Below are positions 14,796-17,687 of a stretch of DNA of 39,229 bases, piece after piece; the first letter of the stretch is position 1; every line of letters starts with the position of its first letter. The notes under the pieces were generated by a model. The model was not told the origin of the DNA. It ran no database searches and saw only the letters and a program-made list of their open reading frames with translations. The DNA is from Porphyromonadaceae bacterium (GTDB lineage Bacteria; Bacteroidota; Bacteroidia; Bacteroidales; UBA12481): the NCBI GenBank assembly GCA_007280905.1, contig QYQM01000065.1, positions 1 through 39,229 on the forward strand, read 5' to 3'. The translations under genes were made by a program, and so were the position numbers.

Positions 14796-17687
14796 ATGAA
14801 ACCTATCCGGATCTCGGTTATCATTGTCAGTTACAACGTTAAGTTCTTTCTTGAGCAATGCCTTAAGTCGGTCTACCGTGCCGGTAAGGATGTACCGATG
14901 GAGGTATTTGTGGTGGACAACAATTCGGCAGATGGTTCTTGTGTGATGGTCAGAAATCAGTTTCCGGATGTCAAACTGATCGAAAATAATGAAAACACCG
15001 GTTTCTCCAAGGCAAACAATCAAGCCATGAGTATTGCCACCGGTGAGTTTCATCTGATACTGAACCCCGATACGGTTGTTGAAGAATCAACTTTTCTGAA
15101 AATCCTGGACTTTATGGATAATCATCCTGAGGCAGGGGCCCTGGGGGTGAGAATGATCGACGGCAAAGGCACTTTCCTGCCCGAATCCAAGCGGGCACTC
15201 CCTACCCCGTGGGTCTCCTTTTATAAGGTTTTTGGATTGGCTGCCCTATTTCCACGATCGCGCAAATTCGGGCAGTACCATCTTGGCTATCTGCCCCAGG
15301 ATGAAGTAAACCCTGTGGATATTCTTCCAGGAGCCTTTATGCTCATCAGGAAATCCGTTCTCGACCACACAGGCTATTTCGATGAATCGTTTTTTATGTA
15401 TGGCGAGGATATCGACCTTTCATACCGAATACGTCAGGCCGGATACCTGAATTATTATTTCCCTGAAACCACCATTATCCACTACAAGGGAGAAAGCACC
15501 AAAAAGTCAAGTATTAATTATGTCCTGATGTTCTATCAGGCTATGATCATCTTCGCCACTAAACACTTTTCGAAAAGCAATGCCAGATGGTTCTCTTTCT
15601 TTATCCGCTTGTCTATATACTTCCGCGCAGCCATTTCCCTGATACGCCGGGTGGTTAGCCGCGTTTTTCTACCAATGGTGGATGCGGCGATATCTTTTCT
15701 GGGTTTTCTACTGATCAATCCCACATGGGAATCCATTAAATTTCCAGACGGGGGCCATCACCCTCCGGAATTTCTGATCCTGTTTGTTCCGGCATATATA
15801 TTAATCTGGTTATTAGCTATTTATTTTTCAGGCGGTTATGATCTGCCAGTCAAATTGGTTAAAATCTTCAGGGGAATAGTTTACGGAACCGCGGTCATTC
15901 TGGTGGTATATTCACTCCTTCCTGAGGAATATCGTTTTTCTAGGGCTTTGATCTTACTGGGTTCAGGTTGGACCCTGATCGAAATTTTTGGGATCCGGCT
16001 GATTCTTCATTTCTCACAGGTAACCGGTTACCGGCTAGATATCGGCAATCGCAAAAAACTGGTCATCGTAGGCAAACCGGAAGAGTCAGAAAGGGTTAGT
16101 CAATTAATTGCCCAAACAAGTCAACCGGTTGAGGTGTTCGGCTTTGTCACTCCCGACCCATCCATTGCAGAATCCGGGAAATACCTCGGTTCGGTTTTAC
16201 AGCTGAGTGATATCATTCGTATAAACCATATCGATGAGGTGATTTTTTGTGCAAAAGATTTAAGCACCAATGAAATAATCAGACACATGCTTGCATTGAG
16301 CTCCCTGGAAACCGAATATAAGATTGCTCCTGAGGCTGCCGAATCTATCATCGGCAGCAATTCCACAAATACCGCAGGCGATCTCTACATTATTCCGATC
16401 AATTCCGTCGGAGAACCTCATAACCGCCGGCTGAAAAGAGTTTTCGATGTCATACTTTCCCTTGTTCTGTTGGGTTTCTCACCGGTTACTGTCTGGTTTT
16501 TCCTGCCGCGCCCATGGCTAATGCTCTGGAGTTGCCTGCAAGTATTATCCGGGGCCCGCAGCTGGGTGGGTTATGCTCAGGCCGGTATCCACCCTGGCTA
16601 TCATCTGCCCCCGATACGAAAAGGCATACTCCGACCGGAGAATGGCATTCATACCACCAAATATACCTCCCAAACCTGGCTCGATCTCAATCTTCATTAC
16701 GCCCGGGATTACCGATTGTTTAAAGATATACGGATTCTGGCTAAAGGTTACAGGTCTATCGTGCAATGTACCAAGCATGTCCTTCTGATAGCATTCCTTC
16801 TGTCGGCAATGATCCCGCACGCGGAAAGTCAGGATTTCAAGGATCAGATCAACATGATCAGACCCAAGCCCGATTACTGCATGATTTACGGGGTACTCTC
16901 GCTGCAGAATAAAGAACTGTTGCCGGATACACGGATCAGCCTGATTGATCCGAAAAGTCATGAGATCTCTGAAAGCATCATGACCGACCGGAATGCATGG
17001 TACCTTTTTTCGGTTAAGAAAGGATTTCCTTATGGCCTGATTATAGAAAAAGATGGTTACTTTCCTTATTATGCGGAATATACAATTCCGTTTGATCTTC
17101 CGCAAAACAGGATGGAGAGAAATATTGCCCTTCCTGATGATCTTAAAAATGATTTCTCACTGTATTACCCGGCAGCTGATACTGTTTTGGGTGAAAAAAG
17201 CCAGGGTTTGCTGGTTCAATTAACCGCTTTACTAAAGAAACATCCCGGCCTTTCAGCCTGGTTTGATCCGCAGGGTGATTCGCTCGATTTTGCCAGAATC
17301 AACCTGCTCACCTCTGCTTTCATGAAAAATGGCGTGGAAATTTCCCAGCTCAGGACAGGCAGCCGGCTAGATCCCGCTGAAACTTTCATACGGATAGAAA
17401 TCAACACGGGTCCCGAAAATGTCGTCCTGCTGCAGTCATCTTCAGATGCTAAACCGCCGGATGAATTATGGACCATCCAGTTCTCGGCTTCCAAAACATC
17501 CCTGAATAAAAAAGCTTTTAAAAGCCTTGATCCCGTTCATGAATTCAAAGGAAAAGATGGCTTTTACAGATACACATACGGTACGTTCAAAACACGGGAG
17601 GAAGCAAACCGCAAGCTTCTGTTAGTCAAGAAGAAAGGCTTTAATAAAGCATTTACCAAAACAGTCGGTTCAATCAAAAAACTATAA
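14796..17687 (+). CDS. GT2 glycosyltransferase / degenerate sugar-transferase / SPOR fusion protein
   Basis: 963 codons open in one frame. Residues 1-250: GT-A family 2 glycosyltransferase (VIIVSYNVKFFLEQC, DNNSADGS, LNPDT, FFMYGEDIDLS), WbbL-like. About 265-400: four or five membrane helices. About 413-520: Rossmann-like domain (KKLVIVGKPEES). About 543-655: remnant of a polyprenyl-phosphate sugar transferase, with its entry helix (RLKRVFDVILSLVLL) and exit (LNLHYARDYRLFKDIRI) but without the catalytic KFRSM/DE core. About 656-680: a hydrophobic stretch like a signal peptide (LLIAFLLSAMIPHAESQ). About 690-790: carboxypeptidase-like beta domain. About 875-960: SPOR-like domain. Homologues of the first part normally end near 650. 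A GTG at 16761 (codon 656) would start a separate 308-residue secreted protein, so this could be two genes joined by loss of a stop. The parts are firm; translation as one chain is unsure. Confidence 0.8.
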   Translation: MKPIRISVIIVSYNVKFFLEQCLKSVYRAGKDVPMEVFVVDNNSADGSCVMVRNQFPDVKLIENNENTGFSKANNQAMSIATGEFHLILNPDTVVEESTFLKILDFMDNHPEAGALGVRMIDGKGTFLPESKRALPTPWVSFYKVFGLAALFPRSRKFGQYHLGYLPQDEVNPVDILPGAFMLIRKSVLDHTGYFDESFFMYGEDIDLSYRIRQAGYLNYYFPETTIIHYKGESTKKSSINYVLMFYQAMIIFATKHFSKSNARWFSFFIRLSIYFRAAISLIRRVVSRVFLPMVDAAISFLGFLLINPTWESIKFPDGGHHPPEFLILFVPAYILIWLLAIYFSGGYDLPVKLVKIFRGIVYGTAVILVVYSLLPEEYRFSRALILLGSGWTLIEIFGIRLILHFSQVTGYRLDIGNRKKLVIVGKPEESERVSQLIAQTSQPVEVFGFVTPDPSIAESGKYLGSVLQLSDIIRINHIDEVIFCAKDLSTNEIIRHMLALSSLETEYKIAPEAAESIIGSNSTNTAGDLYIIPINSVGEPHNRRLKRVFDVILSLVLLGFSPVTVWFFLPRPWLMLWSCLQVLSGARSWVGYAQAGIHPGYHLPPIRKGILRPENGIHTTKYTSQTWLDLNLHYARDYRLFKDIRILAKGYRSIVQCTKHVLLIAFLLSAMIPHAESQDFKDQINMIRPKPDYCMIYGVLSLQNKELLPDTRISLIDPKSHEISESIMTDRNAWYLFSVKKGFPYGLIIEKDGYFPYYAEYTIPFDLPQNRMERNIALPDDLKNDFSLYYPAADTVLGEKSQGLLVQLTALLKKHPGLSAWFDPQGDSLDFARINLLTSAFMKNGVEISQLRTGSRLDPAETFIRIEINTGPENVVLLQSSSDAKPPDELWTIQFSASKTSLNKKAFKSLDPVHEFKGKDGFYRYTYGTFKTREEANRKLLLVKKKGFNKAFTKTVGSIKKL

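Follow-up and report, generated by a model that had tools for sequence, protein, structure and literature searches.

The locus studied here raises the question whether a single reading frame in an uncultured bacterium truly joins a membrane-bound, sugar-transferring enzyme to a secreted cell-wall protein, and if so, what happens to the product. The window, i.e. the whole stretch of 39,229 nucleotides that was analysed, comes from a genus of uncultured lake-dwelling Bacteroidota of the UBA12481 lineage, as given in its source line. The initial annotation had described a frame at 14796-17687 on the forward strand, open over 963 codons, and direct reading of this frame, which contains no stop, bore this out. 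The interpretation that we favour, with a probability of roughly 0.62, is that of an in-frame fusion of former operon neighbours which would work as a polyprotein and be cut by signal peptidase I.

A fused gene within one genus

An in-frame fusion of the GT and SPOR genes was found in six of the eight sampled genomes of the window's genus. The complete copies (G000, which is the window genome, G001, G004, G005 and G006) encode 961-963 amino acids, and the other four are 76-79% identical to the G000 protein over the full length. The copy in G003 is partial, running from residue 286 to the end, as its contig begins there. Four of the six fused genomes are named MAGs from three sample sets, namely Loclat (2), Kiruna3 (1) and AM-2014 (1). 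Codon-position patterns in both halves of the gene are those of purifying selection. Moreover, the C-terminal half is encoded in 11 of 12 family genomes and can be aligned end to end, so that a chance extension of the frame does not account for it.

As the genomes are fragmented drafts, and those that carry a title are MAGs, a lost stop, a sequencing or assembly error or a decaying gene had to be considered. The same open frame in six concordant genomes rules out an assembly error or lost stop, and together with the purifying patterns it leaves an artefact of any kind hardly credible. The earlier proposal of a stop codon lost in this genome is likewise contradicted by its congeners. The fusion is, with near certainty, genuine.

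In the remaining two congeners and in three genomes of two sister genera (together G002, G007, G008, G009 and G011) there are two adjacent genes instead. In the case of G007 these lie in different frames with a 4-nt ATGA overlap, in G002 they share a frame with one stop between them, and in G009 two stops intervene; G008 and G011 also have them separate. Open-frame lengths of 1014 (G002) and 997 (G009) do not represent fusions, since direct translation has stops. In these relatives the GT stops near residue 655, and a signal peptide of 19-26 residues opens the secreted protein. The fused copies have no linker at the join and have lost just the GT stop and the start of the second gene. The description of the frame as two independent proteins joined together thus agrees with the unfused relatives, which keep both as separate genes. 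Such separate genes were put forward initially as an argument against the fusion; they occur outside the fused clade and not in it, and this places the fusion within the genus and speaks against an artefact.

Wherever contigs could be read, gene order is constant, with recR upstream and GNAT, AMP nucleosidase and holA downstream. All fused copies fall on one branch in a tree of both halves (support 100/99), as they do in a tree of the SPOR half alone (91/93). Most simply, then, the fusion arose once, in place, inside the genus. An ATGA overlap of the G007 type could have been turned into the fused frame by one small indel.

Orthologs of the GT part are widespread: of the 393 genomes sampled from the order, 241 have one at E ≤1e-120. 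They align with residues 1-655 nearly over the full length, mostly measure about 650-700 amino acids from stop to stop and normally end at the GT boundary of the fusion. Among the GT matches listed for these 393 genomes, none outside the genus has a frame near 963 amino acids; the longest outlier listed, a frame of 760 amino acids in G104, carries an N-terminal extension and is not a fusion. Because distant GT orthologs precede other genes, the GT-SPOR pairing looks special to this family. Across the order (L015-L034), the 3' neighbour is often an exonuclease-like gene or one that we take from its sequence to be 2-oxoacid dehydrogenase E2-like, not a SPOR gene. A near-fusion layout was seen in G018 (L018:3451-4959), where a secreted protein with a signal peptide ending in FAQ follows in the same frame shortly past the GT stop.

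Domains of the two halves

The GT part, residues 1-655 (14796-16760, forward strand), was delimited by domain scans, a structure model and the orthologs ending here. It comprises a GT2 domain (about 1-240), four transmembrane helices (about 290-404), a Rossmann-like CoA_binding_3 domain (about 410-520) and a degenerate phosphoglycosyl transferase (PGT) tail. The GT2 domain, of GT-A fold, matches PF00535 over residues 7-238 with 80.6 bits against a cut-off of 23.3, in agreement with Foldseek matches to GT2 structures; the Pfam match to CoA_binding_3 is weak (residues 366-485). Residues 541-568 (16416-16499, forward strand) form a re-entrant-type helix broken near residue 561 in the AlphaFold secondary structure. 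The architecture of large monotopic phosphoglycosyl transferases is known from WbaP (PMC10942596). A profile of the orthologs matches the four-helix bundle, the PF13727 domain and the re-entrant-type helix of WbaP (PDB 8t53), ending at WbaP residue 355.

Unlike WbaP, the protein has an additional N-terminal GT2 domain and does not have the region of the catalytic Asp-Glu dyad. The full protein gave no match to the catalytic core PF02397 at E ≤1, and in GT orthologs only some 30 residues separate the helix break from the motif SWVGY. As read from the alignment and the general features of the family, the dyad helix has probably been lost in this gap. The tail motifs RxxKR...D, SWVGY, LP and YAxDY are kept order-wide, hence the tail is probably a conserved, non-catalytic domain for membrane docking. 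A phmmer search with the membrane part of the GT alone against solved structures returned no match. The protein resembles the Bacteroidota GT2/large-PGT-like enzymes, with their GT2 domain, four transmembrane helices, CoA_binding_3 domain and truncated PGT tail, and differs from them in that a signal peptide and a SPOR protein continue in frame.

The predicted mature periplasmic protein spans residues 679-963 (285 amino acids; 16830-17684, forward strand), as judged from the ortholog alignment and AlphaFold, in which residues 681-963 reach a mean pLDDT of 86 and form a beta-sandwich, an alpha/beta domain and SPOR. The whole-chain model has a moderate pLDDT of 74, which falls below 50 at residues 657-692, so that the model is silent on cleavage. 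The CarboxypepD_reg-like beta-sandwich (about residues 694-791; 16875-17168, forward strand) matches PF13620 in 6 of 11 orthologs, and Foldseek aligns some 85 of its residues with carboxypeptidase D/N structures. It is followed by a segment (about 786-871; 17151-17408, forward strand) that was not in the initial domain list. Its weak profile matches to 6top and 5wtp (E 0.2-0.4) are not significant alone, and larger OmpA-type envelope proteins of the order align at this place; the segment is probably a divergent OmpA-like one. A secreted protein in G087 (L088:1428-2675) combines CarboxypepD_reg-like and OmpA-like domains and is related to the middle of the SPOR protein, which suggests how the latter may have been assembled.

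The SPOR domain itself (PF05036; about residues 892-963; 17469-17684, forward strand) remains below threshold in the full-length Pfam scan (residues 915-953). When the C-terminal half is scanned alone it scores 22.1-22.3 bits against a cut-off of 21, and all 11 orthologs match at E ≤0.1, upholding the original SPOR call. Weak profile matches were also obtained to the sporulation amidase 1x60 and to DamX (2lfv). A C-terminal SPOR domain, here with putative glycan binding, is shared with the peptidoglycan-binding proteins DamX, CwlC and FtsN; in our protein it is preceded by the CarboxypepD_reg-like sandwich and the OmpA-like segment.

A signal peptide without its start codon

The retained signal peptide covers residues 656-678 (16761-16829, forward strand) and has a basic n-region, a hydrophobic core of 12 residues and the c-region AES. 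The putative cleavage site follows A676-E677-S678, with Gln679 (16830-16832, forward strand) as the predicted +1 residue. Under the so-called Q-rule of Bacteroidota, a Gln at +1 is the mark of a signal peptidase I site (PMC5837995). The six fused leaders all show a basic approach, an uncharged hydrophobic core of 10-17 residues, Ser or Gly at -1 and Gln at +1, and the five unfused orthologs show a like pattern with Ala, Gly or Thr at -1 and again Gln at +1. All 11 sequences thus have the features of a Q-rule substrate, i.e. n-region, short h-region, small -1 residue and Gln at +1. In G004 and G008 the residue at -3 is Ile.

No part of the fused protein changes faster than the leader, which has a mean pairwise identity of 26%, compared to 59% just before it, 94% just after it and 64-94% downstream. 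In a neutral simulation all leader features were kept in about 4-20% of single lineages, depending on divergence, and in less than 1% for three independent lineages, a crude estimate that takes the history to be star-like and the sites to be independent, counts three lineages and ignores the true tree. The positive charges precede the hydrophobic core, which fits an N-in/C-out orientation. Three of the six fused copies reach a best 19-residue hydropathy of 0.97-1.27, which ill suits a permanent anchor.

The genome has signal peptidase I genes, and a small residue followed by Gln after a signal-peptide-like leader also occurs in four proteins of the window (forward ORFs from 538, 31196 and 32103, and a protein of 487 amino acids on the reverse strand at 1331-2794). 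On contig C12 of G000 (L089:380-4063) there are three tandem signal peptidase I-like genes of 347, 447 and 372 amino acids, the last containing three in-frame copies of the short sequence RNYTEEG.

The six fused copies share no start codon at the join. Column 655 reads ATC, ATC, ATG, ATT, ATC and ATC, and is likely the position of the old ATG start, as matched by the length of the signal peptide. The GTG at 16761, codon 656, had been proposed as an internal start. The two codons available in G005, a TTG within the hydrophobic core and an ATG further on in the mature protein, are not plausible as starts. From this comparison of codons we regard the GTG as incidental.

Fate of the fused product and its meaning

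How, then, is the SPOR protein released, if at all? One answer would be that most of it is made from an internal start, the fused product being minor. The GTG in the window and the ATG at codon 655 in G001 indeed lie where the signal peptide should begin, and G006 has an ATG 8 codons upstream. G003 and G004 however have no start codon near the beginning of the leader, the ancestral ATG was apparently lost in five of six copies, and the lack of conservation rules out the GTG as a general solution; we consider such dual expression quite improbable. Another answer is that of the initial annotation, in which the leader stays uncut as an extra membrane helix linking a glycan enzyme to the periplasmic SPOR domain; the enzyme, active in the cytoplasm, would then be recruited to division sites. 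The fusion on which this builds is real, conserved and of single origin, the predicted topology is compatible, and SPOR domains bind denuded peptidoglycan glycans at septa (PMC6895207). The permanent helix is the doubtful part. The leader keeps its small -1 residue and Gln at +1 despite the low identity, in several copies the core lacks the length or strength of a good permanent anchor, and the whole former signal peptide including its cleavage site was retained with no linker added. A tether is therefore possible but rather doubtful; that the chain stays uncut or is cut conditionally, with the SPOR-tethered enzyme making surface glycans at the division site, we deem unlikely.

Cleavage by signal peptidase after S678 is the likely fate. 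The -1/+1 pattern kept in a fast-changing leader, the Q-rule and the presence of signal peptidase genes favour it, and an anchor could be selected for hydrophobicity with no need of such a pattern. As counterpoints, the Gln could persist simply because it belongs to the conserved mature N-terminus QDF[KR]DQIN, the -3 residue of G004 is Ile, and internal signals can escape signal peptidase I.

In the polyprotein interpretation, the ribosome would make one chain of about 109 kDa. The part with GT2, four transmembrane helices and degenerate PGT would insert so that its catalytic domains face the cytoplasm, and the retained signal peptide, as an internal N-in/C-out signal, would re-engage Sec. Signal peptidase I would then free the 285-residue periplasmic SPOR protein, whose N-terminal Gln would likely become pyroglutamate (the search of this genome for a glutaminyl cyclase covered the plant type, PF05096, as distinct from the animal type, M28, and gave no match). 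The GT would stay behind in the inner membrane, its C-terminal tail being the spent leader. We infer as outcome a 1:1 synthesis of two proteins that sister lineages make from two genes.

This class of architecture has a precedent and is, by this analogy, not categorically new. The fbcH gene of Bradyrhizobium japonicum encodes a cytochrome b/cytochrome c1 precursor that is cut by signal peptidase, as shown experimentally. Both cases have a membrane and a periplasmic protein in one frame, separate elsewhere, and in both an internal signal peptide marks the place of cutting, but the proteins and the phylum differ and our cleavage is predicted from sequence. No useful paper came from a literature search on fbcH and on fused polyproteins cut by signal peptidase.

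Altogether, the genus offers a view of what is probably a bacterial polyprotein in the making, as congeners have the two genes either overlapping, in one frame but separate, or fused. It also shows a signal peptide that stayed under constraint once its start codon was lost. Through the fusion, a GT2 enzyme that is found order-wide but is uncharacterised becomes functionally paired with a SPOR cell-wall protein, and this gives a hint at the role of the enzyme. If the tether were true, a polysaccharide-building membrane enzyme would be held directly at septal peptidoglycan via SPOR.
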